Source: Streptomyces sp. L2 (GTDB lineage: Bacteria > Actinomycetota > Actinomycetes > Streptomycetales > Streptomycetaceae). Taken from it: 64,000 bases of DNA. Where the stretch lies: contig NZ_QBDT01000001.1 in assembly GCF_004124325.1 (NCBI RefSeq), positions 868,001-932,000 of the forward strand, given 5' to 3'. Below the pieces are notes generated by a model. It was not told the origin of the DNA and ran no database searches. It saw only the letters and a program-made list of their open reading frames with translations. Made by a program: the position numbers and the translations under genes. Positions 15,959 to 56,800 of the stretch are shown one piece after another (position 1 is the stretch's first letter; each line of letters starts with the position of its first letter).

Positions 15959-15988
15959 CGAGGCGTCCGGCGCTTCTCCGGCGCCGCA

Positions 15989-16025: not shown

Positions 16026-16046
16026 CCTCTCCCCGCCGGGCCGGGC

Positions 16047-35536: not shown

Positions 35537-37150
35537 CTATGCCTCTGTCTCGAGCAGCAGCACGGTACCCGCTCGAAAGAGACTCTCGCCTTCCACCAAA
35601 GCCTCTTGCAGTTGCTCGACGAGTTGGCGCAGGCGCGCGTCGAGATCGACCTGGTCTCTCGTCTCCGCGACGATCGCTTCACGCACGTCGTCGACGAACG
35701 GCTGCCAGGTGTAACGAGCGCGCTGCGTGCACTCAGTGACGACCTGCTGTCGCTTCTCGGCCGCCGCCTTGTCATGGTTCTGGCGCGCGCGCTCCGTTCC
35801 CTGCTCATCGACGACTTTCGCCAGGTAGACGGCGAGGGGAAGCGCGGCTTCCGCGATGCCGATGGGCCGCGCCAGGTCCCGAGCCGCCTTCGCCGAACCG
35901 GCCTTCCCGCTGGCGATCTGCCCAGGTGTGTTGTTCGCGGCCTTCAACATACCGATCAACATGGTCCCGACCGTCTCGACATGTTCTGCGACACCGCCGG
36001 GCCCCGCCGGGGTCGTGTAGGCATCCTCCCCGGACCCGAGTGTGGCGACCAGCGAAGCAAAGCCTGCCCAGGAGGGTCGGGCGCGCTCTCGCTCCTTGGT
36101 CTTGCGGATTGATTGCTGCAACCGTTGGAGGCGGACCTCGTGCTTGGTGAACCACTCGTCGAGCGTGCGCTGAATCTCGGCCTGAAGTTCGTTGGCGCCG
36201 GAACTCGGCTCCCACGACCGCCGCATCACCTCTTCGACGAGACCGTCGAGGCTGGCTTGGGCGGCTCGATCGAGAGTGTCGAGTTCTCTCTCCCATACGT
36301 CGCGGCGAGCGACGCCACTGGCAGCTACTTCGGCGCGTGCCGTGTAGTCCGACAGTTGCCTCCGAAGTTCGGTCACGGTTTCGTCCAGGACCGCTGTCCA
36401 GTACCGTTGCTCGGCCCTATGTCGCCATCCGGGCAGTGCCGAAGGGGACACCGCCTCGAAAGCATCCGCAAGGTCCCTCATGCCGTCCCAGCCACGGAAG
36501 TCATCCCAGGTCTCTCGGCTGAGATGTGTATCCGGCCCTGCCGTCTGGAACGGGTCCTGCGAGACAACGAATACCGGTACCCTGTCGTCCAATTCGAACA
36601 GTTCTCGCAACTCGCGAACCTTGCGATCACTCAGTTCCCTGTACTCCGCAAGGTCGTACTCTGGGTCCACACCTGCCTCGTCGAACCGCGAGATGACGAA
36701 CCACATCGTCCCTACCGGCCATCCCTGCGTGAACAGTTTCTGAAGCACGTCACGTTCGGCAGTCGCCAACTGAGGAGTCAGTACCGCAATGCCGACGTCC
36801 GTTAGTCCGACCGCCGCCATCGCTCGGCGCGAATTGCTCTGTGCACGAATGTCGGACGCACCGATCGCGAATCCGGGAGTGTCGCGAATTATGCACCCAC
36901 CGACCTCGGCGTCGTTGACCTCGAAGGTTTCATGGCGTGCGCTGATCGTGAGCCAGCCGGGAACATCGCCGCCCGAATCGACGAGCAGCCGGCGGAGCAG
37001 GGAACTCTTGCCGGTGTCGTAGGAACCGAAGAGGGTCACGACCGGTCTGTCCAACTTCTCGAACGCGTCCCAGCCGTCGACGTACCGCCCGACCAACGAT
37101 CCGCCTGGAAGTCGCCCCAGCCAGTCCCGCACTGCATCGATGTAGACCAT
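35537..37150 (-). CDS. Dynamin-like GTPase (single GTPase domain)
   Basis: 537 aa. N-terminal GTPase domain: P-loop GSYDTGKSS (42-50), DTPG switch II (90-93), SRFDE (154-158) in place of NKxD. The rest is long helical segments (about 265-535) typical of the stalk of bacterial dynamin-like proteins, with a moderately hydrophobic stretch near 350-440 that may touch membrane. ATG 37150 lies 2 bp after the TAA of the two-GTPase gene, so the pair is certainly co-transcribed. Bacterial dynamins work as pairs that remodel membranes, and paired members such as IniA/IniC or DynA/DynB suggest these two assemble together. Codon use is less GC-rich than in the flanking core genes. Confidence 0.82.
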   Translation of the reverse strand: MVYIDAVRDWLGRLPGGSLVGRYVDGWDAFEKLDRPVVTLFGSYDTGKSSLLRRLLVDSGGDVPGWLTISARHETFEVNDAEVGGCIIRDTPGFAIGASDIRAQSNSRRAMAAVGLTDVGIAVLTPQLATAERDVLQKLFTQGWPVGTMWFVISRFDEAGVDPEYDLAEYRELSDRKVRELRELFELDDRVPVFVVSQDPFQTAGPDTHLSRETWDDFRGWDGMRDLADAFEAVSPSALPGWRHRAEQRYWTAVLDETVTELRRQLSDYTARAEVAASGVARRDVWERELDTLDRAAQASLDGLVEEVMRRSWEPSSGANELQAEIQRTLDEWFTKHEVRLQRLQQSIRKTKERERARPSWAGFASLVATLGSGEDAYTTPAGPGGVAEHVETVGTMLIGMLKAANNTPGQIASGKAGSAKAARDLARPIGIAEAALPLAVYLAKVVDEQGTERARQNHDKAAAEKRQQVVTECTQRARYTWQPFVDDVREAIVAETRDQVDLDARLRQLVEQLQEALVEGESLFRAGTVLLLETEA

Positions 37151-37152
37151 TG

Positions 37153-40100
37153 TTACTCGTTTCTCCCCGTTGTTCCGATCAATTCGTCCGCGGTCGCGAT
37201 CAAGGTCTCGACCACCTCGGCCCGCACTTTCGCCGAGTCCATCCGTTCCCTGATCGACGATTCGAGATCGAGGTGCTCGTCGAGCAATGTCTCGAGCTCC
37301 CTAGTCCGCTGTTCGAGGTATCCGACGGGACCTTCTCCGTGCCCACCATGCACGATCTCTTCGACGATCCCGGAAGCCGCTTCGTCGATCAACTTCAACG
37401 CCGCCTCCTGCTGGTTCTTGTATTGCCCAGCCTTTTGAATGTCATTAGCCATCGTAAAGGTATCCACCGCGGCAGCTATGACCCCGAGAATGACCCCGGC
37501 CTTGGCAACCTTGGCGCCGCCCTTCACCGCACCCCACGGCTTGAACTTGTGGCCAAACTGCTTGCCGATCACGTAGACCGCGTTCCGATTTCCAAGGGCT
37601 TTCGCAAGCCGCGCTGCGGCTCCTGCGACGTTGCCGGCGCCCTCGGTCAGATCCTCGTACCAGGCGTTTCCCTGCGCCTTGAATTCTGCCGCGAACTCGA
37701 GTTTCACCTGGAACTCAGCAGCGCGCATCTCGCGTACGATTGCTGATATATGGTCGCTGTACCACTCGTCCAGTTTGCGTGCCGCGTCGGCAAGGTACCG
37801 TTCAAGATCAGCTTCGAACTGCGGGGCCTTCCACCAGGAGTCGACGAGGTTCTCCAGCTTCTGGCCGTCCTTCCGATAGAGTTTCGCGACTGCGGATTTC
37901 GTCGCTACCAAGTGGCGGTCAACCATAAGGCGGGCGTCTTCTCGCAGTGAACCTTTGAGGACCACGGCGTCGTTCACGGCCGCCCGGAGGGTAGCGATCA
38001 CCGGTTCCGAGAGACGCAAGTCTTTCGTGCCGTCGACCTGTACCTGGTGAAGTGTGTGCTGGTGGCGCTTGAGAGCGGTGACCGCCGCATCGAAGGCGGC
38101 CGACGACGCTGCAGCGGACAGCTGCTCGTCGGAGAGTCCTGATATGGCGCTCGTCAACGCGGCCACGCCGTCCCATAGCCGATTCTCGTCGAAATCACCG
38201 GGTTTTGCCGTTGCATCGCCTCCCACCAAGCCGAACGGATCGCCGGACAAGCAGTGGATCCTATCGATCTCGACTTTGATGGAACGAGCGGCGAAAGCTG
38301 TATGCAGTTCTTCGCATTTGCGGTCCTGCAGGTTGAGAAATGCCCCGGGTGCAGTCAGCGGATCCACGCCCAGTTCGTCGCACCGATTGACGAGGAACAC
38401 CATCCGCCCTCCTTTTGCGGCAATCATCTCCGAGCCGCGCGAGAGCTCTTCCAGTATCGAGGTATTGCCGACCAGTAGATTAATGTGGACGACGACGAAC
38501 ACGAGAGCAGCCTCGGCGATCGCCTCAAGTGCGGCGGAGTCGTGCTGGTCATGTCCACTCTGCAAGCCCGGTGTGTCCACGAAATCAAACCGGGGCAACT
38601 GGTAGCGGATCGCGGCTGCGGTCGCGGGCAACGCCCGGATGTCGAACGCTGCGTGCGGTTGCTGGCCGCCTTCCACCATGATCCGACGGATCAACGACGA
38701 CTTTCCCGAGTTGTAGTCACCGAGAACGGCAAGAGCTGGCCTTGCCCCGTCGACGCGCCAGAAGGTTCGTGCGATATCGAACAGCGCCGGGTCGCGTCGG
38801 GCCGCGTCCTCGAGGTCGTCTCGCCACGAATGAATGTTTGCCGTCGACGGTGCGCTCCACGCCGCAGCCATCGCGCGCATCAGCCGGCTACGGTCCTCCT
38901 CCCGGCGACTCGAGTACGCCTCGTAAACAGCATGGTCGATCTGCGCCGGCTGGCGGTCGACGCCAGACTCGAGCCAGTCCTCGCCCAACAAGGCCCGGGT
39001 CACCTCGGCCGGGGATCCCCCCATCCGACGCTGCGCCCGCAGCAGGACGTCGGTCACAGCGGGTGCGGGTTTGATCGAACCGGCGTAGGTCTGCAGGCTG
39101 TCGACCAACCGCCCGATCCGGCTGCGCGCCATGCGAAACTCGATCGCAGCGCGGAGCCAATCACCGGCCGCTGGAGCGAACAACCTCCACGCCGCTTCCC
39201 GGCTCTCGCGGACGAGGGCATCCTCGTAATCGACGAAGGTCTGATCCACAGCGCGATGGCAGTCTGCAATTGCCTGAGCCTTCGCTTCTCGAGCTCGTTC
39301 CGACTCCTGCCGGCTCATCTTCTTGCCGAAATGCTGCTGGAGCTGTCCTGCGATCCCGACACCCGCGACAGCCACGCCCAGTACCCAACCCGCGGGGTTC
39401 CAAAAGAGGGCCAGCGCAGGTCCCGCAAGGGCGACCGCGATGCCCGCCCCCCTGACGACATCACCCGCCACACCGCCGCCCTCGTCGCCGAGGATCATCG
39501 CGGCGTGCGATACCGCCGTCCCGTTGTCGAGGGACTTATGGTCCACCGCGACTTCAAGCTCACGCTGCAGGAACGCCCGGTAATCCGCCCAGACGGCTTC
39601 CGCCGCAGCGGAAATGGCACCTTGATCGAACACAGCCTTCGTGAACGTCGACTCGTCGATCGCTGTGTGCTCGTCGAATGCCCTCCGGATCAGATCATCC
39701 GCGTTGGCCTTCGCCTGTCGGCGGCATCCCGCAAGGTGCGAGGCAGCGAGGTGCCGGACGAAGCGGTCCAATGCCCCTTTGGTCGGCAACGTGTACGGGC
39801 GGTTCCGCGCCCGCTCGGACATGTCGACCAGATCCGCGCTGAGAGCCGCATCGTGCAGCCACTCGGCACGTTCAGCGTCTTCCGGATAGCCCAACACGGC
39901 GAACAGCGACTCGACCCCGCGTTCGAGGGACTCCGCCTCCTGCTCGATCTCGACCGCCAGGTCCTCGAGTTCGCCGACCCCTCGGCGGCACCGTGATCGG
40001 ACGTCCTCGCGCAGCGCGGTCAACCGGAGATCGGCGCTGCCTTCCGCAATCGAGGTGACTATCAGGCGCTCCAGCGTCCCGAAGTTCGACCAACGATCGT

Positions 40101-40953
40101 GGTAGTCCGTCCCGAATTCCTCGCGTTCAAGGTGGAAGGCTTCCGAGGCTGGGCCACGGAAGGGAGTCGTGGCGCGCGCCAACAAGGCCCGTCGGCTGTG
40201 GATCGCGACGACCGGGGTGTCGGGCAATCCGATCTGTACAAGCTGGGTCCGGATGTTGTCGGCGTGCTGGCGAACCGATCCGGACAGATTCCTGCGGCCA
40301 GCCTCGGGAACTTTCGCGGGGTGGCGCCAACGCGAGTTGCGGACGTTGAGGACAGCCACCACCGGCTTTCCGTGGTCGCGGATCCAGGCGGCGATCTTCT
40401 CGAACTCCATCTCCTGCTGAGATTGGTTGTCGAAGCACAGAAGCACGATGTCGGCGATCTCGACTGCCTCACGGGCTTTGGCCTCGAGATCGTCCCGGCT
40501 CTCGGTCCGTCCCCAGCCGTTAATCCCGGGTGTGTCGAACAGCCGGCAATCCCGCCACTCGATTGGACGCACCTCGGTGGTCCAATCGCTGACACCCGGT
40601 GAAACATACTCCCCGTCGAGCTGGCCGAACGCCGACAGCAGGGTGCTCTTTCCGACGCCGGTGCGTCCGAAGAACGCGATGTTGAACGACCCGAGTGACT
40701 CACGCTCACGATCGAGATGACGTCGCAGTTCCCCCGGGAACCCACGAGTGAATCTGTCCAGTCGGGTGATCAAGTCAGACGAGGACGGTGCGACGCGTTG
40801 CCCTTGCGTAAATGCGCCGATCAGGTCGTCCGTTATGTCATCCAGGTGCGTCAGTTCCGCGTGTCCCTGCTCGACGGCCGATCGAACGGCCTCCTCGAGC
40901 GACACCACCTCTGTCGTCAACTCGTCATCGCTTTCTGCTGGCAGACCGGTCAC
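37153..40953 (-). CDS. Tandem dynamin-like protein with two GTPase domains
   Basis: 1266 aa from GTG 40953; the start is uncertain and an open frame runs to 41070. GTPase 1: GRTGVGKST (96-104), DTPG (140-143), with LNVRNSRW where NKxD should be. A helical stalk follows, then two hydrophobic segments (GIAVALAGPALALFW, GVAVAGVGIAG, about 498-530) that could insert in membrane. GTPase 2: GDYNSGKSS (about 745), VDTPG (about 792), NRCDE (about 854), then a second stalk with a short hydrophobic patch (AGVILGVIAAAVDTF) near the C-terminus. Two GTPase-stalk units in one chain are rare and recall DynA-type fusions. It is followed at 2 bp by a third GTPase. Confidence 0.82.
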   Translation of the reverse strand: MTGLPAESDDELTTEVVSLEEAVRSAVEQGHAELTHLDDITDDLIGAFTQGQRVAPSSSDLITRLDRFTRGFPGELRRHLDRERESLGSFNIAFFGRTGVGKSTLLSAFGQLDGEYVSPGVSDWTTEVRPIEWRDCRLFDTPGINGWGRTESRDDLEAKAREAVEIADIVLLCFDNQSQQEMEFEKIAAWIRDHGKPVVAVLNVRNSRWRHPAKVPEAGRRNLSGSVRQHADNIRTQLVQIGLPDTPVVAIHSRRALLARATTPFRGPASEAFHLEREEFGTDYHDRWSNFGTLERLIVTSIAEGSADLRLTALREDVRSRCRRGVGELEDLAVEIEQEAESLERGVESLFAVLGYPEDAERAEWLHDAALSADLVDMSERARNRPYTLPTKGALDRFVRHLAASHLAGCRRQAKANADDLIRRAFDEHTAIDESTFTKAVFDQGAISAAAEAVWADYRAFLQRELEVAVDHKSLDNGTAVSHAAMILGDEGGGVAGDVVRGAGIAVALAGPALALFWNPAGWVLGVAVAGVGIAGQLQQHFGKKMSRQESERAREAKAQAIADCHRAVDQTFVDYEDALVRESREAAWRLFAPAAGDWLRAAIEFRMARSRIGRLVDSLQTYAGSIKPAPAVTDVLLRAQRRMGGSPAEVTRALLGEDWLESGVDRQPAQIDHAVYEAYSSRREEDRSRLMRAMAAAWSAPSTANIHSWRDDLEDAARRDPALFDIARTFWRVDGARPALAVLGDYNSGKSSLIRRIMVEGGQQPHAAFDIRALPATAAAIRYQLPRFDFVDTPGLQSGHDQHDSAALEAIAEAALVFVVVHINLLVGNTSILEELSRGSEMIAAKGGRMVFLVNRCDELGVDPLTAPGAFLNLQDRKCEELHTAFAARSIKVEIDRIHCLSGDPFGLVGGDATAKPGDFDENRLWDGVAALTSAISGLSDEQLSAAASSAAFDAAVTALKRHQHTLHQVQVDGTKDLRLSEPVIATLRAAVNDAVVLKGSLREDARLMVDRHLVATKSAVAKLYRKDGQKLENLVDSWWKAPQFEADLERYLADAARKLDEWYSDHISAIVREMRAAEFQVKLEFAAEFKAQGNAWYEDLTEGAGNVAGAAARLAKALGNRNAVYVIGKQFGHKFKPWGAVKGGAKVAKAGVILGVIAAAVDTFTMANDIQKAGQYKNQQEAALKLIDEAASGIVEEIVHGGHGEGPVGYLEQRTRELETLLDEHLDLESSIRERMDSAKVRAEVVETLIATADELIGTTGRNE

Positions 40954-41087
40954 GACGCGACGGTGATGCTCGTCGAGCTGTCCAGGGCCTGGCGGGCGAC
41001 CTTCCGGAAAAGCCGGCCCGCTGACCCGCTGGCCGGGCCATGAGCAGCGGGTCCGGGCTGAACTCGGCACCGCTGGTCACTTCACGC

Positions 41088-41123
41088 CCTGGGGATCGAC
41101 CCACTTGTGGGTCGATCCCCAGG
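41088..41123. terminator. 17-bp perfect hairpin inside the minus-strand gene array
   Basis: Perfect 17-bp stem (CCTGGGGATCGACCCAC at 41088-41104 with its complement at 41107-41123) and a 2-nt loop. It lies 6 bp past the stop of the Hsp70-NYN gene and before the two-GTPase gene on the same strand. It may end the upstream transcript or act as a processing or attenuation site, which would make the GTPases a separately tuned unit. Confidence 0.8.
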
Positions 41124-41129
41124 AGGCAT

Positions 41130-43211
41130 TTACCCCTTGTAGCGCGCACCACTGTTGAGCGGTGGCACCCGTGAGCTGAAGACCCAGACCCCTTGGGACA
41201 AGGTCGCGCCGAGCATTCGCCCAGGCGTCCGTAGCCAGGGGTTGGCGGCCTGGAGCGGCGCGAAGTTGTCGTTCGAGACGATCACCCCGTCGACGGCGTT
41301 GGCGATGTCGACGACGAGTGCGTCTCCGCGCCCCTCGGTGCCGGCCGGCGGCTGCACGACCCGGCGGGCGTCGATCGCCGCCTGTACAGCCCCTCGCTCC
41401 TCGGCGTTCACGTCGTGGCGCAGCGTCGCGTCGATGACGACATGAATGTCCCTGTTCGGGTAGCGGCGCTGCAGAGCGGCGACGCCCTCTTCCAGGACGG
41501 TGAAACGGGGTCGGCCGCCGGCGGCCCGGCTGGCGCTGGAGACCCAGGCGAGATTGGAACCGTCGACCACCAGCGGGCGATTGTCCACTGTGGCCGCGAG
41601 CCGGGCCAGTGCCGCCGGGGACGCCTTGCCAGGTTTCGAGCCCACTGTCTCGGAGGGGACGACAGGCTCGGTCCGGTGCGGGTGTGTGGGCAGGGGAGCA
41701 GTGCGCTGGGACGTCCCGCTAAGGGACATCAGGTGGGTCAGCTCCTTCTCGACCTCCGGCGACGCCCCCGTAGTGCCGAAGGTCGACACCGGTTCGTTGA
41801 GGACGATCTCGCCGGTCTTGACGAGCGTCGCCTTCACTTCGAGCAGTCCTTCCTTCGTGTAGGTGTAGTCGAGCTCGAAGGTTCCGTCCTGCGCCGAACA
41901 ACGCCTTTTGTACTCGAGCGTAAGGACGGTGAGCCGAACGTTGTCCGGGTGGTCGACCGGCTTATCCGGGTCGCCTTCCCATACCTCCACCTGGAGAGAG
42001 GCCAAGTTGTCCTTGGTCGGTGTGTAGGACTTCTTGCGGATCTGCGGCAACGGCTGATTCCGCGGGATGATCATGCTGAAACTGCGCCTGCCACCGGGGT
42101 GGGTCGTCACTGTCCCCAGTGCATGGGAGTTGACCACCTGAATGATGCTGTCGAGCTCGCCGTTAAGAGAAGCGGCGGCGATTGCGGCGCCCTCCGCCAC
42201 GGCCGTCATAGGATTGCACAGGTCGGCTCCGACCGGCACGCATCCCAGGGCTTCGGAGACCGCCGCGCGTACCGCTGGAATCTGGCTGCTGCCACCGATC
42301 ATCAGCACAGCGGTCAGTTCGCTCGGATCCATGCGGAGGTCTTCCAGACAGGCCTCGACGGGGTCCAGGGCGCGGGAGATGAGATCCTGGATCTCCTCGG
42401 AAAACTCTTCCTGGGTGATTTCCACGCGGAGGCCATCCGGCGTGATGACAGGGACGCTGCTCTGCTGTGACAGGAGGATCTTCGAGCGTTCGATGTCGAG
42501 CCCGAACTGTCGCTGCTCGGAAGGCGTCCACTGACGGCGCTGTGGTGCTCTTTCCAGGACGAGGCGCTTCAGACGCTCGTCGATCTCGAGTCCGCCGAGG
42601 CGGTTCACTCCCCGGGATGCCTTCTCGTCGAAGAAGCCGTCGTCGTGGAGCAGGATGGTGGAGTCCATGGTCCCACCACCCCAGTCGAAGACTAGGAACT
42701 CCCCGGTCTCCTCCAGGGCGTGGGCGTACGCGATTGCTGCTGCCGTCGGCTCGTTGAGCAGGGCCTGCACGCTGATGCCCGCGACTTTGGCCGCCTCGCG
42801 GGTCCGGTAGCGCGCCGCGCCCGTCGCGTTGGCCGGCACAGTGACCACAGCGTTGGCGATGTCGGTGGCCGCTTCCTCCTCCGCCACCCTGGCCATGGTG
42901 CGGAACACTCCGGCGGCAGCCGTCGTTGCCGCGAAGCGCCGGTTCCCGATCGTGACCAGCTGCTCGTCACGGAGCATGCGCTTGCAGGCTTCCACAGCGC
43001 TCTCCGAACGGAGCTTGGCCTCCCAGCCGAACAGCGTGCCGGCGCGCAGGGAACTGGTGCCCACCACGGAGGGGAAGAGACACTCGAAGCCAGGACGTCG
43101 CCAGTCCGCGTCGAGTCCGTAGCCGCCGAGCTCAAGCACTTCCACGTATTCGCCGTTCCACTGAGCGGCTACGGAATTGGTCGTTCCGAAATCGATGCCC
43201 GTCGCAGTCAC
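41130..43211 (-). CDS. Hsp70-like ATPase fused to an NYN/Zc3h12a-type ribonuclease domain
   Basis: 693 aa, GTG start overlapping the upstream stop (GTGA). Residues 1-390 form an Hsp70 actin-fold ATPase: GIDFGTTNSVAAQW, VVTVPANATGAARYRTREAAKVAGI, LNEPTAAAIAYA, FDWGGGTMDSTIL and MIGGSSQIPAVRAAV. A divergent beta-type region follows (about 390-500). After a linker, residues about 535-693 match the NYN/Zc3h12a ribonuclease pattern: PLVVDGSNLAW, HVVIDATLRHD, PPAGTEGRGDALVVDIA, DGVIVSNDNFAP, PWLRTPGRMLGA and GVWVFSSR. The acidic residues expected for metal-dependent RNA cleavage are retained. A chaperone-controlled RNase is inferred. The same strand carries a CxxC protein upstream and, past a hairpin, two dynamin-like GTPases. 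Confidence 0.85.
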   Translation of the reverse strand: MTATGIDFGTTNSVAAQWNGEYVEVLELGGYGLDADWRRPGFECLFPSVVGTSSLRAGTLFGWEAKLRSESAVEACKRMLRDEQLVTIGNRRFAATTAAAGVFRTMARVAEEEAATDIANAVVTVPANATGAARYRTREAAKVAGISVQALLNEPTAAAIAYAHALEETGEFLVFDWGGGTMDSTILLHDDGFFDEKASRGVNRLGGLEIDERLKRLVLERAPQRRQWTPSEQRQFGLDIERSKILLSQQSSVPVITPDGLRVEITQEEFSEEIQDLISRALDPVEACLEDLRMDPSELTAVLMIGGSSQIPAVRAAVSEALGCVPVGADLCNPMTAVAEGAAIAAASLNGELDSIIQVVNSHALGTVTTHPGGRRSFSMIIPRNQPLPQIRKKSYTPTKDNLASLQVEVWEGDPDKPVDHPDNVRLTVLTLEYKRRCSAQDGTFELDYTYTKEGLLEVKATLVKTGEIVLNEPVSTFGTTGASPEVEKELTHLMSLSGTSQRTAPLPTHPHRTEPVVPSETVGSKPGKASPAALARLAATVDNRPLVVDGSNLAWVSSASRAAGGRPRFTVLEEGVAALQRRYPNRDIHVVIDATLRHDVNAEERGAVQAAIDARRVVQPPAGTEGRGDALVVDIANAVDGVIVSNDNFAPLQAANPWLRTPGRMLGATLSQGVWVFSSRVPPLNSGARYKG

Positions 43212-43849
43212 TGGCCTCCCTCCGCGACGTACGCCTCGCTGCTCGCAGCTCCCACGCGACGCAATTGACCGGCGAGGGCGAGCTTGCCCGTGGCTTCGTC
43301 CACATAGGCCGGCCGCAGAACTTCGAAGGCCTCGCCCTGCCCCTCGGTCACCACGAAAAGCTCCTGCGAGCCGGGGTCCGTGACCCTGCGGAGCTGAAGA
43401 TGGCCGAGGTGCTCGGTCATGGCGTCCAGCACGGCCTGGGAGACACCCTGCGCATGGAGGAGCGCGTCGATCTCACACAGCCTGCCGACGAACTGGGCGC
43501 GGGTGCGGAACTCCGCGATGACTGCGGTGCGGACCGCTTGGGGCAACGCTCTGCTCGTCTCGGCGGCGCGCTGCTCCTCGCTGAGTTCCGCGAGTGCGGC
43601 GGGTACGGCTGCCACGATGCCTTTGATCACTTGTGCGGCGTCGAGGGGTTCGCAGGTGGCCCACGCCGTCCGGGGCTGCTGCTCCGTCGCCTTCGCGCGC
43701 CGTATCGCCGTGGCGGTGGGTTTTGGGCGTTTCTGTGTCGCCGCGGGACGAACCTGCCCACAGTGCGGACACACCTTGTGCGACCTGAAACGCTTCTCGG
43801 GCTTGGTGGCACGCTTCTTGATCGCGATACGGCGGGGCGTGTTCGGCAT
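43208..43849 (-). CDS. Unknown protein with one CxxC knuckle, partner of the Hsp70-NYN gene
   Basis: 213 aa, no family recognised. The N-terminus is strongly basic (RRIAIKKRATKPEKRFRSHK) and followed by CPHCG, a single CxxC knuckle without a second pair, so metal binding would need a partner or dimer. The middle (about 70-150) is helical (AAQVIKGIVAAVPAALAEL, SQAVLDAMTEHLGHLQL) and the C-terminus is beta-rich (SQELFVVTEGQGEAFEVLRPAYVDEATGKL). The stop overlaps the Hsp70-NYN start (GTGA at 43208-43211), so the products probably act together, for example as a co-chaperone or RNA adaptor. There is no clear Shine-Dalgarno at ATG 43849. Confidence 0.65.
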   Translation of the reverse strand: MPNTPRRIAIKKRATKPEKRFRSHKVCPHCGQVRPAATQKRPKPTATAIRRAKATEQQPRTAWATCEPLDAAQVIKGIVAAVPAALAELSEEQRAAETSRALPQAVRTAVIAEFRTRAQFVGRLCEIDALLHAQGVSQAVLDAMTEHLGHLQLRRVTDPGSQELFVVTEGQGEAFEVLRPAYVDEATGKLALAGQLRRVGAASSEAYVAEGGQ

Positions 43850-43905
43850 GACTGAGTGGCCTGGCTTTTCCTGTTGAAGGGGATGTCTCGGACTGTGTGC
43901 GAGTA

Positions 43906-45591
43906 CTACGTGGAGCGGTGACGGTCAAGGCGCGGGGGCGCGGTACGGAAGTCCTGGAGAATCTCGACAGCGGCACGCGCGCGCACCGCCTCCATCTCCG
44001 CCCCGCTGGTGGCGGGGGTTCGCCGCGGCAACGGCTCCAGCGGCGGGACAAGGGACCGCGGTACGGCGTCGGGCGCTTCGTAGACCGTGTGGTTCAGAGG
44101 CAACCGGAAGAAGACCCCGTCTCCGGCTTCGTGTCGGCGCGCCTCGTCGAGTCGACTGCGGATCATGTTGAGCCGTGCGTACTTCACCGTGTCGAAGCGG
44201 GACTCGCGGACGAGCTCGCGGTACCGCGTCTCCCAGTCGGCGGAGCTGTGCGGCAGGCCGAGGTCCAAGTACGGATTGGTGAGAGGATCACGGGTGTTCT
44301 TAGGCGTCGCACGCCACACTCGTATGAGGGCGAGATTGTCCGACGCCTCGTCCGTAAGCGCCGCCGCGCGCTCCATCAGCCTTTCAGCGCCTTGTAGATC
44401 TTCGGCGGCGAGGGCTGCGTAAGCGGCGATGTTGAGGGCTTCGGGCAGCATGTTCGGCATGCTCAGCGGAAGTCTCTTCCCGGGTTTCGCCAGGCGGTCG
44501 AAGGCGGCAGCCTGCTGCCCCGCCTCCTCCACCCGGCCTTCGATCACTAGGTCGTAGGCCCTGCGAATGGCTGTCCACGCATGGAAGTCGCTGAGCCGCG
44601 GATCGACGGTGGAATCGGGGTCCCACAGCGTGGACATGAGTGCCCACAGGCCGCGGTCGACGAGAAAGTCTCTCGGCCAGTTCCCCTCGTAGGAACCGGC
44701 CTTCAGGTTGCGCAGCTGAATGCGCTGTTCCTCGGGAAGGGCGGCGTCCAGCTCCTGAAGGCGGGTAGCGTCACCCACCGACGCTTCGACCAGCAACTCG
44801 TAGACGTCCGGCCGACCATCGGCATCAGATCCATCGGCGTCCAGGTCCTGGCCGGACATGAAATCCGCGCGGCGCAGGAACGAGGTCCACTCCAGGGCGC
44901 GGGCCTCGTCCCGCGTCACCTTGCCCGGGACAAGCCGAGCACGCAGGTAGACCGCCTCACTGTCGGCCCGATACGCCCATGGACTGTCCTCCGGCAGGAT
45001 CCCGCCGTGCTCGATGAGGTCGTCGACGACCGGCAGCGGAGCCCAGCGGAGCACCTCGGGGAGCATCTTCCTGGGCACGGGCACGGCTCCGCCCATGGCG
45101 ACCGAGGTGAACAGCGAGTACGCCGGTCCTCCGGTCAGGCTCCGTGACGACCGTGCCAGCAGCAGACTAGGGGCAGTTGAACAGATGACTGCCTGACGTC
45201 CCGTACCCTCCGGCGTCAGCCACTCCACTCCCGCGGCGTGCAGTGTCCTGAGGTGCCTCAAGACGTCGGTGGGGGCGACCCGCTTCAGCAGTGTTCCGAC
45301 TGCGGGCAGCAGTGAGTCGGCCTCGGGGGAACCCGCGATGGCCTTACGCAGTTGCTCTTCGTGATGGCCGCCGTCGCCGCCCGGACCGGAGCTCGCGTCC
45401 CGCAGTTCCTCCAGGATTTCCAGCACAGCGTGCACGGCCTCCTCGCCGTTCACCCCGAGCCACCGCCACTTGCGCAGGAGGAACCCGCTCGTGCGGAGCG
45501 AGGGCGCGGCCTCACGTCGCTGCCGCTGCTCGGCCAGACGACGCTTTTCAGCCGCGATGGCAGCTTTTCGGGCCGCTACCGGGTCGGTCAT
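43906..45591 (-). CDS. Unknown helical protein of the Hsp70/GTPase island
   Basis: 561 aa, soluble, no family recognised. The N-terminus is a charged helix (ARKAAIAAEKRRLAEQRQRREAA). The middle includes an Ala-rich repeat-like region (about 370-450: LSMPNMLPEALNIAAYAALAAEDLQGAERLMERAAALTDEASDNLALI) that looks like one or two TPR-type helical hairpins. The C-terminal part is rich in Arg and Pro. An adaptor or scaffold is the most that can be said. ATG 45591 is used; a GTG three codons earlier is possible. It lies 95 bp after the CoiA-like gene stop and 56 bp before the CxxC protein, same strand. A TATAAG box on the minus strand at 45645-45650 could mark a promoter. Confidence 0.7.
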   Translation of the reverse strand: MTDPVAARKAAIAAEKRRLAEQRQRREAAPSLRTSGFLLRKWRWLGVNGEEAVHAVLEILEELRDASSGPGGDGGHHEEQLRKAIAGSPEADSLLPAVGTLLKRVAPTDVLRHLRTLHAAGVEWLTPEGTGRQAVICSTAPSLLLARSSRSLTGGPAYSLFTSVAMGGAVPVPRKMLPEVLRWAPLPVVDDLIEHGGILPEDSPWAYRADSEAVYLRARLVPGKVTRDEARALEWTSFLRRADFMSGQDLDADGSDADGRPDVYELLVEASVGDATRLQELDAALPEEQRIQLRNLKAGSYEGNWPRDFLVDRGLWALMSTLWDPDSTVDPRLSDFHAWTAIRRAYDLVIEGRVEEAGQQAAAFDRLAKPGKRLPLSMPNMLPEALNIAAYAALAAEDLQGAERLMERAAALTDEASDNLALIRVWRATPKNTRDPLTNPYLDLGLPHSSADWETRYRELVRESRFDTVKYARLNMIRSRLDEARRHEAGDGVFFRLPLNHTVYEAPDAVPRSLVPPLEPLPRRTPATSGAEMEAVRARAAVEILQDFRTAPPRLDRHRST

Positions 45592-45686
45592 GTCAAACAC
45601 ACAGGCAGGTTAACCGGCGCCACCGACATGCGTCACGAACTGCGCTTATATCGACGACCGTAGCGACTCGACCCTGCTGGCCTGGC

Positions 45687-47162
45687 TCACCCGTTCCGCT
45701 CCGCGGCCTGAGCTGACGTAGCGGAGTAGGTGTCGGGCTCGTCCAGCTTGAGGTTACGCCTTGCAGCCCGCAGCGCGAGTTCCAGCTGCCGGACATGCCT
45801 ACCGCCCTCGTTCGACGCATCACCCCGGGGGGTCGTCACGGCGGCCAGCCACAACTCGGCGCCGTTGATGGCCCGTGTGACCTGCTTGCGAACCGGCTCT
45901 CCCAATGCTCCCTCAAGGGGGCGGAGCTGACTGATCAGGTCCCTGGCCCGATGTCGGCGTTCCTTGTTCTCGGGTTGACGCTCCGCTGCGCCCGTCTGCT
46001 CTTCCGAGTCGGCCGCGGTACCGGCCTCCGCCGTCGAACCCGGCGAGCTGACAGCGCTCGCTCCGGTCGTCACGTCGACAAGGCCTGTCGGGCGGATGGA
46101 AGTCCGCCCGCATTCGGCGGTGGAGGCCGAAGAGGGAGACCAGAGCCCGGTGCGTTGGGCTTCGTTGGCGTTCAGCCGGATGTAGCGCTCAGCTGTCACG
46201 ACCCAGCCAGTGCCGCCGTCCGCCACGACAACGCGCGCTCCGTCAGACACTCGGTAGACGTGCCCTGCGTCTGGGGGGTCAGTGTCAGCGGGAAGGGAGA
46301 CGAGAGCGTGCACGACGGGACTGTCGACGGGCAACACGCAGGCGGCGATCAGGTGCCGGTCTCCGACGTCGAAAGGTGTCCGTTCCGGCACCCTGCTTCC
46401 AGGTACGGGGGCGAAGACCAGACCGCCCTGTACCGGGAAACTCGCGGTCCTGTGGCAGGCCTGGGACAGCCGAATGGTCTCCAGAGGTGGAGTGAGCAGA
46501 CCCGTCGGCGTGAGAGTGCACTCCTCCAAGGGCGTCCATTGGAGCGGATGTCCTTGCGCTGACACTCCGATGTGCACGCGACGCTCGCCACCATGAGTGC
46601 TGAGACGGACCCGCAGCGAGTATCCCTGACGGTAGTGCAGTTCGTGTGTCAGCGGTCCGTCCTGCGCGAAGACCCAGTCCGCGCCATCGGCGTCGTGGGC
46701 GAACCTCTCAGCGGCCTGGCGCCAGGCGAGGTGGTCGATGGCGGCGAGTTGGAACCGCACGCGTCGTCGTGTACCTGGAACGAACACGTCCACGGCGTCG
46801 CCGGGACCGGTGCCGAGATCGCGAGTGCTGACCTTGCCTCGTAGGCCCTGCCGTGCGAGGAGCCGCTCCATGCCGCGCTTGATGAAGAGATGGTCCGCGC
46901 TGGATTCGCCGTTGGCGGTGCGGCGGCACACGGCGTTGGGATGGTGGGCGAAGTGGCACACCTTGTCGGTGTAGCGCCGGTCGCTCAGCTCACCGCCGCA
47001 GCCGCCTAGCTGGATCCCGCACCAGTAGGTGTAATTGGGGTGCAGCTTTCGCCAGTGGTCCAGCTCGTGATGGTCCATCGGCAGGATCACAGGATCGCCG
47101 GAGTACTTGTCTCCGATCACCGCCGTCTGGACGCGTCGGTGATCCAGCGGGACGGACGTCAT
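45687..47162 (-). CDS. CoiA-like protein with zinc-type motif and PD-(D/E)xK-like fold
   Basis: 491 aa. The N-terminal region has paired cysteines (YWCGIQLGGCGG, then VCHFAHHPNAVCRR, about 48-81), typical of the CoiA-like zinc-binding start. Next comes ESSADHLFIKRGMERLLARQG and GDAVDVFVPGTRRRVRFQLAAIDHLAWRQAAERF, the arrangement of a CoiA-type PD-(D/E)xK nuclease core. The usual E-x-Q or E-x-K pair is replaced by FQL, so catalysis is doubtful. The C-terminal 150 residues are low-complexity, then helical and basic. CoiA-type proteins act in DNA uptake or processing and occur in defence islands. It is the first gene of the six-gene minus-strand array; ATG 47162 has no strong Shine-Dalgarno. Confidence 0.65.
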   Translation of the reverse strand: MTSVPLDHRRVQTAVIGDKYSGDPVILPMDHHELDHWRKLHPNYTYWCGIQLGGCGGELSDRRYTDKVCHFAHHPNAVCRRTANGESSADHLFIKRGMERLLARQGLRGKVSTRDLGTGPGDAVDVFVPGTRRRVRFQLAAIDHLAWRQAAERFAHDADGADWVFAQDGPLTHELHYRQGYSLRVRLSTHGGERRVHIGVSAQGHPLQWTPLEECTLTPTGLLTPPLETIRLSQACHRTASFPVQGGLVFAPVPGSRVPERTPFDVGDRHLIAACVLPVDSPVVHALVSLPADTDPPDAGHVYRVSDGARVVVADGGTGWVVTAERYIRLNANEAQRTGLWSPSSASTAECGRTSIRPTGLVDVTTGASAVSSPGSTAEAGTAADSEEQTGAAERQPENKERRHRARDLISQLRPLEGALGEPVRKQVTRAINGAELWLAAVTTPRGDASNEGGRHVRQLELALRAARRNLKLDEPDTYSATSAQAAERNG

Positions 47163-47840: not shown

Positions 47841-47882
47841 GGACACCTTGTCCATCTCCTCCAGGGTGTGTACGGTCTCGCC

Positions 47883-49625
47883 ATGGCCGCCGACGAATCC
47901 GCCCCCGCGGCGGTCGTCACGGCTGCCGAGATCGCCCGTCTCGCCGGGGTAACCCGCGCTGCCGTCTCGAACTGGCGTCGGCGCCACCCCGACTTCCCGC
48001 GCCCCGCCGCTGGCACGGCGACCAGCCCCCTCTTCGCGCTCGCGGAGGTCCAGCAGTGGCTGGACCGGCAGGGCAAGGTCCGCGAGACCTCCGGCGAGGT
48101 GGACCTGTGGCACGAGCTGCGGGCCCAGTACGGCGACGACCTGCTCACCGCACTCGGCGCGGTCGGCGCGCGGTTGGTCGGAACCGCCGTCGAGCAGCCG
48201 CTGGCCGAGCCCGCCGCGGCTGCCCTCACCGCCTTGTCCGCGGAGCGTGACGCACACGCCCTCTACGCCGACCTCATCGAGCGCTGTATCGCTTCCACCA
48301 CCCGCAGCGGCGGTGAGCCGATGACCACTCTCGCCCTGGAGCGGATCGTCGCGGCGTTCACCGGGCCGGCTGGCGAAGCAGCCGAAGCATCGGAGCGCAC
48401 AGTCCGCACCGTCTACGACCCGGCGTGCGGCATCGGGACACTGCTGCTCACCGCCGTCCCGGGTGCCCACCGGTACGGCCAGGAACTCAATCCGGCGACG
48501 GCCGCCATCGCCGAGTTCCGTGCCCGGCTCGACGGCAGGACCGCCACGCTGGCCTGTGGAGACTCGCTGCGCAAGGACGCCTTTCCCGACCTCCGCGCCG
48601 ATCTGGTCCTCTGCGATCCCCCGGTGGGCGTGGCCGACTGGGGGCGGGACGACCTGCTGCTCGATCCCCGCTGGGAGCTGGGCGTACCCCCGCGCTCGGA
48701 GAGCGAACTCGCGTGGGTCCAGCACTGCTACGCCCACACCGCCCCCGGCGGCCGGGCGCTGCTGGTGCTGCCCTCGTCCGTCGCCTACCGCAAGGCCGGT
48801 CGCCGGATCCGGGCCGAACTGGTGCGCCGAGGACTGCTGGCCTCCGTGGTGGCACTGCCGCCCGGTCTGATGTCCAGCCACTCGCAGCCCGTGCACCTGT
48901 GGATCCTGCGGCGACCTGCCCAGGGCGATCCCGCCCCGACACACATCCGCATGATCGACCTCAGCACCGCCGACCCGGACGGCATCGGCATCGGCATCGG
49001 CATCGGCATGAAGGACTGCGCACCGACGCCGGAGCAGATCGCGGACGTTCCGCCCGTCGACATCCTGGACGACGACGTCGACCTGAGCCCCGGCCGTTAC
49101 GTCACCCCCCATCACGGCGACTACCCCGTCGAGTACGCCGTCCTGCGCGACCGCGTCCAGAGCATCGCCCGGGACCTGCTCGACCTGCTCCCCGAGCTCC
49201 CGGCCGGCCCCGGCCACATCGAGGCCGCGCCGATGGGACTCGGCGACCTCGTCCGGGGCGGTCTGGTCGACCTGGACGGCACCGAGCCGACGTCCCGGAC
49301 CGACCAGCTCGACACCGACTACCTGCGCGGTTTCCTGCGCAGCGCCGCCAACGCCCGCCGCAGCACCACCGCCAGTGGCACCCTCCGCCTGAACGCATCG
49401 GGTGCGCAGCTTCCGCAGATGGACATCGGGCGCCAGCGTGAGTACGGCGAGGCCTTCCGGCGTCTGGCCGCCTTCGAGGAACTGCTGCGCGAGGCCGCCG
49501 CCATCGGCGACCGGGTCGGCGCGCTCGCGTACGACGGGCTGACCAAGGGTGCCCTGCTGCCGCCGTCGGCCGCCACCAGTGCCTCTTCGGGGGAGAGCGA
49601 GTCCCAGGAGGCGCAGGATCAGTGA
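47883..49625 (+). CDS. HsdM-like N6-adenine methyltransferase homologue with N-terminal helix-turn-helix
   Basis: 580 aa. N-terminal winged helix-turn-helix (about 15-70: VTAAEIARLAGVTRAAVSNWRRRHPDFP, then LFALAEVQQWLDRQGK). The N6_Mtase-like domain has the SAM-binding motif DPACGIGTLLL (about 179-189) and a catalytic region LVLCDPPVG (about 242-250), where active enzymes have [DN]-P-P-[FYW]: the aromatic residue is Val. Activity is therefore doubtful; a DNA- or SAM-sensing role is possible. Five GGCATC/G hexamers encode GIGIGIGIGM at 48981-49010. ATG 47883 gives a sensible start; GTG 47868 is an alternative. The stop overlaps the kinase start (GTGA). First gene of the five-gene operon. Confidence 0.8.
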   Translation: MAADESAPAAVVTAAEIARLAGVTRAAVSNWRRRHPDFPRPAAGTATSPLFALAEVQQWLDRQGKVRETSGEVDLWHELRAQYGDDLLTALGAVGARLVGTAVEQPLAEPAAAALTALSAERDAHALYADLIERCIASTTRSGGEPMTTLALERIVAAFTGPAGEAAEASERTVRTVYDPACGIGTLLLTAVPGAHRYGQELNPATAAIAEFRARLDGRTATLACGDSLRKDAFPDLRADLVLCDPPVGVADWGRDDLLLDPRWELGVPPRSESELAWVQHCYAHTAPGGRALLVLPSSVAYRKAGRRIRAELVRRGLLASVVALPPGLMSSHSQPVHLWILRRPAQGDPAPTHIRMIDLSTADPDGIGIGIGIGMKDCAPTPEQIADVPPVDILDDDVDLSPGRYVTPHHGDYPVEYAVLRDRVQSIARDLLDLLPELPAGPGHIEAAPMGLGDLVRGGLVDLDGTEPTSRTDQLDTDYLRGFLRSAANARRSTTASGTLRLNASGAQLPQMDIGRQREYGEAFRRLAAFEELLREAAAIGDRVGALAYDGLTKGALLPPSAATSASSGESESQEAQDQ

Positions 49626-50788
49626 ACCGACCCGCTGATAACCTCGCTCTCGTCCAGCCAGGTCAGGACAGTACGGGGGCAAAGGTGCTGCAGCCGCTCA
49701 GAGCGGGCGACCCGACGACGGTCGGGAACTTCCGACTGGTCGGCCGGCTGGGGCAGGGCGCGATGGGTGTCGTGTACCTGGGTTACCGTTCGACCCGCCC
49801 GGTCGCGGTGAAGGTCGTCAGACCGCAGCTCGCGGAGGACGAATACTTCCGCAAGCGCTTCGCACTGGAACTGGAGGCGATCCGCCGCGTCGGCGGCTTC
49901 CACACCGCCGCTCTGGTGGACGCCGACCCGCAAGCGGCGACGCCTTGGATCGCGACCCAGTACATCAACGCGCCCTCGCTGCTGGAGCTGGTGGAGCAGC
50001 ACGGCCCGGTCAGCGAGCTGGGTGCGTGGTGGCTGGCAGCGGGTCTCGCGGACGCCCTGATGCACATCCACTCGGTGCGTTTACTGCACCGCGACCTCAA
50101 GCCCGGCAACGTCCTGGTCGCTACGGACGGCGTCCGGGTCATAGATTTCGGAATCTCCCACGTCAGCGGCGGCACCGGCCTGACCACGGCGAGCGCGGCC
50201 CTCGGCACCCTCTCCTACATGGCACCGGAACAGGCGGCGGACTCCCGTAGGGCCGGCGAGGCGTCGGACGTCTACAGCCTCGGCGCGACGCTGGCGCACG
50301 CGGCGACCGGCCACGTCCCCTTCTACGCACAGATGCCGGCACAGCGGACGCTGGACATCCAGCCCGACCTGACCGGCCTCCCGCCCGCGCTGCTCGACCT
50401 AGTCACCCACACGCTGGCCTTCGACGCCGAGGACCGGCCGACGGCACAGAACGTGCTGGAGGAGGCGATGGGACGCCTGCTCGACTTCGGCGTGCCGACG
50501 GAGGCGCAGGCGTACCCGCCGCTGCCGGAGGCGTTCCTCGCGGCGGTGCTGGAGCGGCAGGCCACACCGGTCGAGGCACCGGATGCCGTACCGGATCCCA
50601 ATGCCGCGGTGGACGCCGAGCCGGGCGGCGTTCCGGACATCGCCCCCGAGCCGGTGCCCGGGGCCGCGCCGTTCCCCAGGCCCGCGGAGCCGCTCGATCC
50701 CGGGCCCCAGCCGGACGCCATGCCGGACCGCTGGGCCGCACGATGGCGCAGTCGTATCGAGGACCGCCGCGGCGACTACGGCGGCTGA
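49622..50788 (+). CDS. Cytoplasmic PknB-type Ser/Thr kinase with a TTA codon
   Basis: 388 aa. Complete kinase domain (about 36-290): GQGAMGVVYLG loop, VAVKVV lysine, HRDLKPGNVL catalytic loop, DFG, APEQA. There is no membrane helix; the tail (about 310-388) is Pro/Ala/Asp-rich, then basic (DRWAARWRSRIEDRRGD). It carries a TTA leucine codon at 50081-50083 (residue 154, just before HRD), which in streptomycetes makes translation depend on the bldA tRNA. GTG start in a GTGA overlap with the HsdM-like gene, 83 bp before the helicase. Kinases accompany other phage defences (PglW, Stk2), so control of the operon products by phosphorylation is inferred. Confidence 0.9.
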   Translation: MNRPADNLALVQPGQDSTGAKVLQPLRAGDPTTVGNFRLVGRLGQGAMGVVYLGYRSTRPVAVKVVRPQLAEDEYFRKRFALELEAIRRVGGFHTAALVDADPQAATPWIATQYINAPSLLELVEQHGPVSELGAWWLAAGLADALMHIHSVRLLHRDLKPGNVLVATDGVRVIDFGISHVSGGTGLTTASAALGTLSYMAPEQAADSRRAGEASDVYSLGATLAHAATGHVPFYAQMPAQRTLDIQPDLTGLPPALLDLVTHTLAFDAEDRPTAQNVLEEAMGRLLDFGVPTEAQAYPPLPEAFLAAVLERQATPVEAPDAVPDPNAAVDAEPGGVPDIAPEPVPGAAPFPRPAEPLDPGPQPDAMPDRWAARWRSRIEDRRGDYGG

Positions 50789-50871
50789 CCCTGTCAAACC
50801 CGTGCACAAACCACAAACGCCCAGTGCTTGAACAGCACAGCGGCAGAGCAGCAATCGAAGGAGACCCGCCG

Positions 50872-53857: not shown

Positions 53858-56800
53858 GTGGCATTCGAAGCGATCACCAACCGCGGTGAGTACATCTCCG
53901 CCCACTACCTCGCCGAGCTGTTCGCCAAGGACCTCACCGAGCTGCGCAAGCGCTGGACCTCCGCCGACCGGGCGGGCGCTCCGTCGTCCCGGTCGGGTGT
54001 GAAGGGCCTGCGTCGCGAGTACTTCAAGGCCAAGGTCCGCATCACCGAGAACAAGGCCTTCGACGGTCCCGAGGTACGGGAGCTCAACGACCGCCTGTTG
54101 GCGGCGCTGGCGTATGTCGAGCCCGAGGGCGAGGGCAAGGACGCGGAGGCCGCCGCTCCGGAGCCCGCGGGTTCCACCCACACCCGACTGCGCCGGGGCG
54201 ACTTCGGCGTGATGCAGAGCGACAAGGAACGATCGGTGCCGGTGGCGCTCGCCGTCACGGGCCCTGGCGGCCTGGAACTCGTGGCCCTGGACGTCACCTG
54301 GGAGGTCGACGGCGAACTCGTCGTCGCGGACGTCGAGGACGGCGGCGCACAACTCCTCGACCCGATCCAGCTCGACGGCAAGCAGCTCATTACCAGTGCG
54401 GCCGACGCCGTCACCTTCCTCTTCGGCTGCGAGGACGGCTACGCCCCGCGCTACGTCCTGCTCCTCGCGGGCGGCGCGGTACTGCTCGCCGACCGCACGG
54501 CCTGGCACGAGGGCCGGTTCCTCGCGGTGAGCGTGGACGAGGCCCTGGACCGCAACCTCAGCGCGGACGGCGAGGAACTGGAGGCGGTGGCCGCGCTGTT
54601 CGGCGCGGAGTCGCTGCTGACGGAGGGCGGCGTCGCCGGGTACCTGGACGGTCTGGTCGACAAGGGCCGCAAGCACGCGGTGGGTGTGTCGAAGGAGCTG
54701 CGGGAAGGGCTTCGGCAGTCCGTGGAGCTCATCGCCCAGGAGATCCTGGACCGGCTGAAGGACGGGGGTGCCGATCCGGCGGAGCTGGGGGACCCGGCAG
54801 ACCTGGCGAGCCGGCTCACTCGGGAGTCACTGCGGTATCTGTACCGGATCCTGTTCCTGCTCTACGCGGAGGCCCGGCCCGAACTCGGCATCCTGCCCAG
54901 CAAGGATGACGCCTACCAGGACGGCTATGGCCTGGCACGGCTCGGCGAACTGGTCTCCTACGACCTCCCGGAGGAGGCCCAGGACGGCACGCACTTCGCC
55001 GATTCGCTGAATCTGCTCTTCCGGCTGGTCGACCAGGGACACCGCCCCCTGGGCACGGACGCGGCGCCGACCGAGGGCGGCGTGACCGTCCTCGACGCGG
55101 ACGGCCTGCGCTTCGAGGCCCTGCGCAGCGACCTGTTCAAGGCCGATGCGACCCCGCTGATCGGCTCGGTGTCGGTCGAGGGCGAGCGGATCGACACGCG
55201 TCTGCGCAACAAGGTGCTCTGGCGGGTGCTCAACCTGCTGATGCTCACGCAGGGGCGCCGTAGCGGGCGCGGCAAGGCCGGCGGCGGCACCGGCAAGGGC
55301 TTCATCTCGTACGCGCAGCTGGGCATCAACCAGCTCGGTGCGGTGTACGAGGGCCTGATGTCCTACACCGGTTTCTTCGCTTGGGATGACCTATACGAGG
55401 TTGCCAAGCCGGATTCGGACGGGCTGAGCGGCACCTGGGTCGTGTCCTTGAAGGACGCCGACAACTACGACGAGGACGTCTTCGTCAAGCGGACGGACGA
55501 GCTGACAGGCGTAAAGAAGCGTGTCCTGCACAAGAAGGGCAGCTTCGTCTACCGCCTGTCAGGGCGGGAACGGCAGCGGTCGGCCTCGTACTACACGCCG
55601 GAAGTGTTGACCCGGAGCACGGTCAAGCACGCGCTGGCCGAGCTGCTGGACCAGGACGGTGAGACAACGCCTGCGCGGGCGATCCTGAACCTGACGGTGT
55701 GTGAGCCCGCCCTGGGCTCGGGCGCGTTCCTCAATGAGGCCATCAATCAGCTGGCTGCGGAGTACCTGAAGCGCAGGATGGCGGAGCTGGGTGGTGAACA
55801 ACTGCCTCCGGACCGGTACGAGGCGGAGCTTCAGAAGGTCAAGGCGTACCTGGCCCTGCACAACTGCTACGGCGTCGACCTCAACCAGACCGCTGTTGAG
55901 CTGGCCGAGGTCTCGCTGTGGCTCAACTCGATGCATGAGGGCCTGAAAGCCCCCTGGTTCGGACTGCACCTACGTCGCGGCAACTCGTTGATCGGGGCGC
56001 GGCGGGCTGTGTACGCGGCGGAGGCGCTGAAGCGAAAGGCATGGCTGACGACGGTACCGACGGACCGGACACTGCGGGCGGGAGCCGAGGAAGGCCAGTT
56101 CCAGGCTGGCGAGGAGATCCACCACTTCCTGCTCCCGGCAAAGGGCTGGGGCGCTGTCGCGGATGCCAAGCAGGCCAAGGAACTGGCGAAGGAGGAACGC
56201 GACGCGCTGGCGAAGTGGCGAACCGCTGTCACGGCGACGCCGTCGGTGGCGCAAGGTAAGCGGCTGCTGGCACTGGCAACGCGAGTCGAGCGCCTGTGGG
56301 AGCTGACCCGGCGCCGCCTGATCGTGAGCGAGCGGGAGGTCCGACGCCAGATCGACGTGTGGGAAGTCGACCCCGAGCGGCCGCTGGAGAAGGCGTCCGG
56401 AGACCTAACCCGCGAGCAGATCGAGAGCGCACTGAACGAGCCGGGCTCGCCACGCGGCCGGATGAAGCTGGTGATGGATGCCTGGTGCGCTCTGTGGTTC
56501 TGGCCCGTGGGGCAGCCTGAGACACCTGCGCCGCCCAGCATGGAGGAGTGGCTGTCGTTCTGCGAGGCAGTGCTGGGAGTTCCGACGGCCAAGGCGAAGG
56601 CGAGGCAGTCCAGCCGTGTCGGTGGCGGCGGGGCGGGGCTGGATGACGAGTTCGGGCTGTTCGCCGACACCGCCGAGTTCGAGAAGCTTGCGATGGACGA
56701 CGAGTTCGACCGGGTGATGAGCCAATGCGTTGACCTGCCGTCCGTGACGGTGCGGTTCCCGTGGTTGGGCGAGGCGGATGCGATCTCACGACGAGAGGGG

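Follow-up and report, generated by a model that had tools for sequence, protein, structure and literature searches.

Which genes of a minus-strand array in Streptomyces sp. L2 belong together, and what might they do as a unit? The array occupies positions 35537..47162 of a 64,000-nt stretch of the genome (the window), and an earlier note had described it as six genes with overlaps or short gaps, encoding a CoiA-like protein, an unknown protein, a CxxC protein, a fusion of Hsp70 with a NYN RNase and two dynamins, with abortive infection as a plausible logic. The six open reading frames (ORFs) are present on the minus strand as the note had placed them, with spacings of 86, 56, −4, 59 and 2 bp by the listed ORF ends (alternative starts are possible). 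A conserved six-gene unit was ruled out by co-occurrence across loci; the conserved unit is a three-gene core with variable extras. The core encodes a J-like protein (P0005), a GrpE-like protein (P0004) and the Hsp70-NYN protein (P0003), referred to below as the trio. With a probability of about 0.5, the trio is a dedicated Hsp70 cycle tied to DNA restriction of the YprA/Druantia type (ARMADA-like, DruE or Pgl-like), with RNase output as an option.

Loci were collected by searches with two of the three proteins. When 100 genomes, from the source and its relatives, were searched with P0003, eight clear orthologues turned up, counting the one in its own genome; two of the eight were partial. The genes around them repeated the set P0005, P0004 and P0003. 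Because the P0005 alignment (A1) was insufficiently conserved, named genomes were scanned with the Hsp70 alignment (A4), which yielded at least 80 loci; the first 17 (L038–L054, identity at least 40%) were taken as members, giving a lower bound of at least 17 loci, and the other 63 as controls. The genus was represented by 392 genomes, from which another 24 stretches surrounding P0005 homologues were retrieved. The resulting set comprised 49 loci including the window, 46 of them distinct, and all neighbour counts refer to the stretch retrieved at each locus. The order J-GrpE-Hsp70 (P0005-P0004-P0003) on one strand was found at 44 of the 46 distinct loci, the exceptions being L035, with a broken Hsp70 remnant, and L046, with no J-like match. 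Among the 24 distinct loci reached via Hsp70, P0005 was present in 22 and P0004 in 23, and both partners were present in all 22 loci reached via P0005. Pairwise distances within the trio were correlated with r of 0.93–0.97 (n 40–42; 0 of 999 permutations, kinship uncorrected). The distribution is sporadic, with P0005 in 27 of the 392 genomes, after removal of 4 that matched only residues 51–106 from the 31 found at E ≤ 1e-3.

The fusion in P0003, as read in the earlier note, was borne out by Pfam matches to HSP70 (E 1.3e-57) and RNase_Zc3h12a (E 6.9e-5), the latter borderline at 23.1 bits against a cut-off of 23.0. The ATP-binding and catalytic residues D7, K77, D176 and T181 are kept at 45 of the 46 loci and D183 at all 46, so that P0003 is an Hsp70 whose ATPase residues are intact, and we take the DnaK equivalents to be K70, T199 and D201. 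The sole exception is the truncated L035, where positions 9445-10818 hold an Hsp70-NYN remnant that lacks the N-terminal half and stands without its partners, probably a decaying copy. The HSP70 match on P0003 stops at profile position 489 of 599, and the NYN domain comes next. When a NYN profile built from 10 sequences (A8) was compared with PDB sequences, all 10 matches at E ≤ 1 were ZC3H12A/B/C or KHNYN, with E values of 2e-8 to 4e-6. The motifs DGSN, the D of GDALV and SNDN line up with ZC3H12B/C; D550, D630 and D648 match ZC3H12 acids in the alignment and D594 does not. Family match and catalytic acids together place the domain among the NYN/Zc3h12a RNases. All four acids are retained at 30 of the 46 loci, and the domain is absent or degenerate at 16.

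The two proteins between the Hsp70 and the CoiA-like gene, listed earlier as an unknown and a CxxC protein, look like J-like and GrpE-like co-chaperones of the Hsp70, a likeness that had been missed. The predicted model of P0004 displays the GrpE fold, a long helix, a second helix and a six-strand beta domain, with a block-mean predicted local distance difference test (pLDDT) score of 90–94 for residues 121–200. Because Pfam GrpE (PF01025) does not match it at E ≤ 0.1, we label P0004 GrpE-like and keep it outside the Pfam family; the single PF01025 match in its own genome (G000) sits at 3606873. A P0004 profile found nothing meaningful among PDB sequences (best E 0.1), and the CxxC motif is missing in many relatives. 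For P0005, an hhalign comparison with the DnaJ J-domain scored 26.8 over 25 columns (pairwise E 7e-5), a value equalled by none of 100 column shuffles, the best of which reached 23.5. None of the J-like segments compared has an HPD motif, Pfam DnaJ gives no match to P0005 at E ≤ 0.1, and a P0005 profile found nothing meaningful among PDB sequences (best E 0.65). The protein may be described as an Hsp70 partner with a weakly J-domain-like C-terminus. Its 68 homologues among the matches listed all lack Pfam annotation, and its closest relative, P0007 of Streptomyces bungoensis, is 99% identical. The J-like matches are weak in L047 and L050 (46–50 bits). In L040, L191 and L200 the match is split across two frames, reflecting a frameshift or a sequencing error. 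A phage or plasmid origin for P0005 was considered and set aside, no match having been found in the phage or plasmid collection. Read from sequence and model, the trio comprises an Hsp70 with its ATPase residues, a GrpE-fold partner, a weakly J-like partner and, in most members, a Regnase-type RNase.

Table 1. Positions in the window of the trio, its predicted domains, the accessory genes and the divergent neighbours.
Feature	Position	Strand	Basis or remark
Single dynamin, accessory, 537 aa	35537..37150	-	PADLOC LeoA 7e-108
Two-GTPase dynamin, accessory, 1305 aa	37153..41070	-	PADLOC LeoBC 7e-166 and LeoA 6.5e-75
Hsp70-NYN protein P0003, 693 aa	41130..43211	-	ATPase domain and beta substrate-binding domain; predicted C-terminal NYN RNase approximately at the DnaK lid position
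Predicted NYN (Regnase-type) RNase domain, residues 544-659	41235..41582	-	PDB profile matches, motif alignment
GrpE-like protein P0004 ('CxxC protein'), 213 aa	43208..43849	-	
Predicted GrpE-fold core, residues 90-201	43247..43582	-	VIA-align of predicted model to 1dkg_B
J-like protein P0005, 564 aa, the large N-terminal part with no fold assigned	43906..45600	-	present at 44/46 loci
J-domain-like segment (NPYLDLGLPH...WETRYRELVRE..D..ARLN), without HPD	44101..44277	-	hhalign
'CoiA-like' protein, accessory, identity unconfirmed	45687..47162	-	3/46 loci; no family match
Methyltransferase, divergent neighbour	47868..49625	+	PADLOC MTase_I; weak mad1-like N-terminus, mad2-like; homologue at 15/46 trio loci including the window
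Ser/Thr kinase, mad6-like, divergent neighbour	49622..50788	+	
DrmD/BrxH-like SNF2 helicase (ArmA position)	50743..53853	+	PADLOC DrmD 7e-87, BrxH 7e-56
Type IIG/DrmMI-like methyltransferase (ArmB position)	53858..58777	+	PADLOC REase_MTase_IIG E 0, DrmMI 8e-50, PglX 2e-4 (weak); Pfam Eco57I
DruE/YprA-like helicase (ArmC position)	58787..64000	+	continues past window end; 2252 aa in L202

The link to restriction emerged from the neighbours. At least one restriction-type gene lies in the retrieved stretch at 34 of the 46 trio loci, compared with 4 of the 63 control Hsp70 loci, which are mostly from other phyla and not taxon-matched, and of which 2 of the 4 positives are barely so. By type, DruE was counted at 16 loci, MTaseF4 at 15, DrmD at 9, MTaseIIG at 8, and PglW and F8 at 3 each. 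Several of these genes run together with the trio on one strand: F8-J-GrpE-Hsp70NYN-DruE-PglW-PglX in L044, where the locus end cuts the run, and DrmD-MTaseIIG-J-GrpE-Hsp70NYN-LeoBC-LeoA in L054, where the MTase-J, J-GrpE and GrpE-Hsp70 pairs each overlap by 4 bp. Hsp70 distances correlated with those of DruE (r 0.95, n 11; 0 of 999 permutations), and DrmD (r 0.77, n 7) and hardly with those of MTaseF4 (r 0.23, n 15), kinship being uncorrected throughout. Two control loci from metagenome-assembled genomes, L087 (Desulfomonile) and L103 (Acidobacteriaceae), contain a strong DruE match (767 and 680 bits), hinting that the Hsp70-DruE linkage is wider than the actinobacteria. The methyltransferase at 47868 was matched in 302 of the 392 genomes and, being so common, says little by its presence alone; many of its homologues at 52–57% identity have one in-frame TGA in the aligned part, probably an earlier natural stop. 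A trio that served stress responses or RNA quality control, had no connection to phages and hitchhiked in defence islands would accommodate the 12 of the 46 loci at which the retrieved stretch holds no restriction neighbour, and Hsp70 chemistry is stress chemistry; the sporadic distribution, and the runs that the trio shares with restriction genes on one strand in L044, L054 and loci of the DruE type, make this improbable.

In the window itself, the divergent operon had been called DISARM-like, a description that can be refined. Genes past the window end were typed by Pfam and a DruE profile, and the DruE-like gene is followed in L202, the continuation of the same genome, by a UvrD helicase at the ArmD position, with about 250 extra N-terminal residues before the UvrD match in which no Pfam match was found at E ≤ 1e-3. 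Directly after it, at L202:9285-11404, an AAA_21/SMC-like ATPase and an HNH protein overlap by 4 bp, a pair which we take to be Septu-like. The last four divergent genes reproduce the gene-type order of ARMADA Type II as given in its published text, namely BrxHII/SNF2 helicase, methyltransferase, YprA/DruE-like helicase and UvrD helicase (PMC12458937), a comparison made with that text and not with ARMADA sequences. The window differs in that the main text of that paper has no Hsp70, GrpE, DnaJ, NYN, dynamin or chaperone.

In another explanation, very large restriction proteins (methyltransferases and DruE-like helicases of about 1,500–2,250 aa) would depend on the trio for folding or assembly, and NYN would do no more than limit their mRNA or would be a relic. 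Loss or degeneration of NYN at 16 loci would fit such an assembly chaperone, as would the Hsp70-DruE distance correlation and the 10 NYN-less loci, 7 of which have DruE next to the trio, immediately upstream and in the same orientation (several of these loci being close mutual relatives). We nevertheless find it rather unlikely, since the NYN acids are kept at 30 loci and the ARMADA main text is silent on Hsp70, GrpE, DnaJ or any chaperone (PMC12458937).

Under the favoured reading of a dedicated, restriction-linked Hsp70 cycle, P0003 would supply the ATPase, P0004 would act as exchange factor, and P0005 would be either the sensor or an adaptor for clients. The large N-terminal part of P0005 may recognise a trigger, whether a protein of the phage or a restriction-complex intermediate, which its J-like end would hand to Hsp70. 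ATP hydrolysis would then alter the Hsp70 conformation and remodel the restriction complex, as the conserved function, or release NYN for RNA cleavage, an optional second line if DNA restriction fails, and P0004 would reset the cycle. Chaperone action is placed at the core because the ATPase is conserved at the 16 loci without an intact RNase, and RNA cutting is a likely output in most loci because the NYN acids are kept in 30. The restriction neighbours point to a defence in two steps, acting on DNA and then on RNA, of the kind proposed for CoCoNuTs (PMC11090510). It is possible, as a tentative extension, that the trio is an Hsp70-gated immune effector, in which NYN occupies the place of the lid and J-like-stimulated hydrolysis and GrpE-like exchange toggle RNA cutting behind ARMADA/Druantia-type restriction. 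An abortive-infection logic is plausible; NYN cannot explain everything in it, because the domain is so often absent or degenerate.

Related systems place these predictions in context. CoCoNuTs combine an Hsp70-like protein, a HEPN RNase and restriction in superoperons, for which an echeloned DNA-then-RNA logic was proposed (PMC11090510); type III, with the Hsp70-like CnuD, occurs with Druantia III, BREX or type I restriction. They differ from the trio in that their RNase is HEPN, whereas here NYN is fused to Hsp70; in their degenerate Walker-A-like motif, the ATPase residues being intact here; and in that the main text of PMC11090510 does not mention GrpE, DnaJ or NYN. No McrB-type GTPase or McrC DUF2357 was found among the Pfam matches (E ≤ 0.1) of the six array proteins, the neighbours at other loci lying outside that search. 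GAP1-N2 DO-GTPase systems, which are predicted actinobacterial conflict loci, likewise encode HSP70, GrpE and a DnaJ-domain protein together, but are described as centred on a DO-GTPase and GAP1 with FNIII repeats (Kaur 2020, PMC7159879); in the trio, the Hsp70 bears an RNase, Pfam matches neither co-chaperone, and the genes nearby are of the restriction type. The canonical dnaK-grpE-dnaJ operon shares the three predicted roles, whereas the trio is sporadic, runs in the order J-GrpE-Hsp70, lacks HPD and has NYN behind the substrate-binding domain; canonical dnaK, grpE and dnaJ genes are located elsewhere in the same genome. A more distant parallel is sacsin, a eukaryotic chaperone with DnaJ and HEPN domains (PMC3710099). 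On the restriction side, DruE is described as a helicase-nuclease of Druantia III, which acts late (PMC13192584). No description of the Hsp70-NYN trio was found in the open-licence literature, subscription journals lying mostly outside the search, and the trio would represent a chaperone-containing, restriction-linked defence module not described in the literature searched. Chaperones are known as factors borrowed by phages and as dependencies of a few immune proteins, such as bNACHT25, which requires DnaJ for phage sensing (PMC12169576). If our reading is correct, a defence-linked operon with its own Hsp70-J-GrpE-like set, the chaperone fused to an RNase resembling human Regnase and KHNYN, would be a folding machine turned switch, and a chaperone arm would be added to ARMADA and Druantia-type systems.

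Among the extras, the two-GTPase and single dynamins recognised earlier match PADLOC LeoBC and LeoA profiles strongly and nearly over their full length, which together with the GTPase domain identifies them as Leo-type dynamins; in Pfam, the single dynamin falls just short of the GTPase cut-off (20.8 vs 21.9 bits). They differ from the PADLOC systems in that the window pair consists of a LeoBC-LeoA fusion of 1305 aa and a LeoA, with an occasional link to the trio. Dynamins at other loci were found by PADLOC and profiles, single-sequence searches being too insensitive. Pairing of Hsp70-NYN with dynamins, which the earlier note had proposed to look for, does recur, with a Leo pair directly downstream of the trio at 5 of the 46 loci (the window, L042, L054, L190 and L192). 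The four other pairs form one clade, 23–29% identical to the window pair (240–313 residues, BLAST, like with like), and a difference of this size points to at least two origins of the pairing. The 392 genomes were searched with the window single dynamin (P0001) and an L054 LeoA. The L054-type matched 10 genomes, 8 at full length once G162 (26% identity) and G373 (a trio genome matching at residues 449–570 only) were dropped; the trio is present in 4 of these 8, compared with 27 of 392 overall (hypergeometric P 0.001), and adjacent in 3. Window-type LeoA (E ≤ 1e-8) occurs in 4 of the 392 genomes, and only the window's own has the trio (P 0.25). We infer that dynamin pairs are occasional membrane-level add-ons. 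In L031, the closest relative, a pair of minus-strand genes (12741-17149; 883 and 586 aa), neither matched by Pfam, takes the place of the window's dynamins beyond the trio, after a DUF429 gene.

The 'CoiA-like' gene is limited to the window, L031 and L178, and its name found no backing: the protein has no match in Pfam, NCBIfam or PADLOC at E ≤ 0.1, and a search of its own genome with CoiA PF06054 gave none at E ≤ 1. A single abortive system of all six genes, with Hsp70 or the CoiA-like protein sensing, NYN cutting RNA and the dynamins acting at the membrane, would account for the short spacings in the window and for the five downstream Leo pairs, and is very improbable: dynamins were not found at 41 of the 46 loci and the CoiA-like gene at 43, window-type LeoA shows the weak association given above, and the comparative data already argue that dynamins and CoiA-like protein would be dispensable for protection by the trio. 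Because the genes are not conserved together, the six-gene unit of the earlier note fails, while its fusion and its dynamin pairing stand; the tie of the trio to ARMADA/Druantia-type restriction genes had been overlooked. The earlier note's view that the gene content matches no described system holds insofar as the dynamins are the only ones of the six proteins to which PADLOC gives a name, apart from a weak PDC-M61B match on the Hsp70; for P0004, P0005 and the CoiA-like protein, Pfam, NCBIfam and PADLOC yielded no match of use.

The guanine-plus-cytosine (GC) content, reported as lower in the array than in the core, is indeed 0.60–0.69 per kb across 35–48 kb, against 0.69–0.74 at 30–34 kb and 0.71–0.73 at 48–51 kb. 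The drop is not peculiar to the array genes, because 51–59 kb is likewise low (0.53–0.71). The minimum of 0.53, at 57001-58000 within the type IIG-like methyltransferase gene, lies far under the remainder. At the other end of the array, a 251-aa protein without Pfam match is encoded at 34659-35414 on the plus strand and thus converges on the dynamin genes. In L039, the gene immediately downstream of Hsp70-NYN (12103-12936) encodes a homologue (E 4e-140), and L050 has a weaker one.

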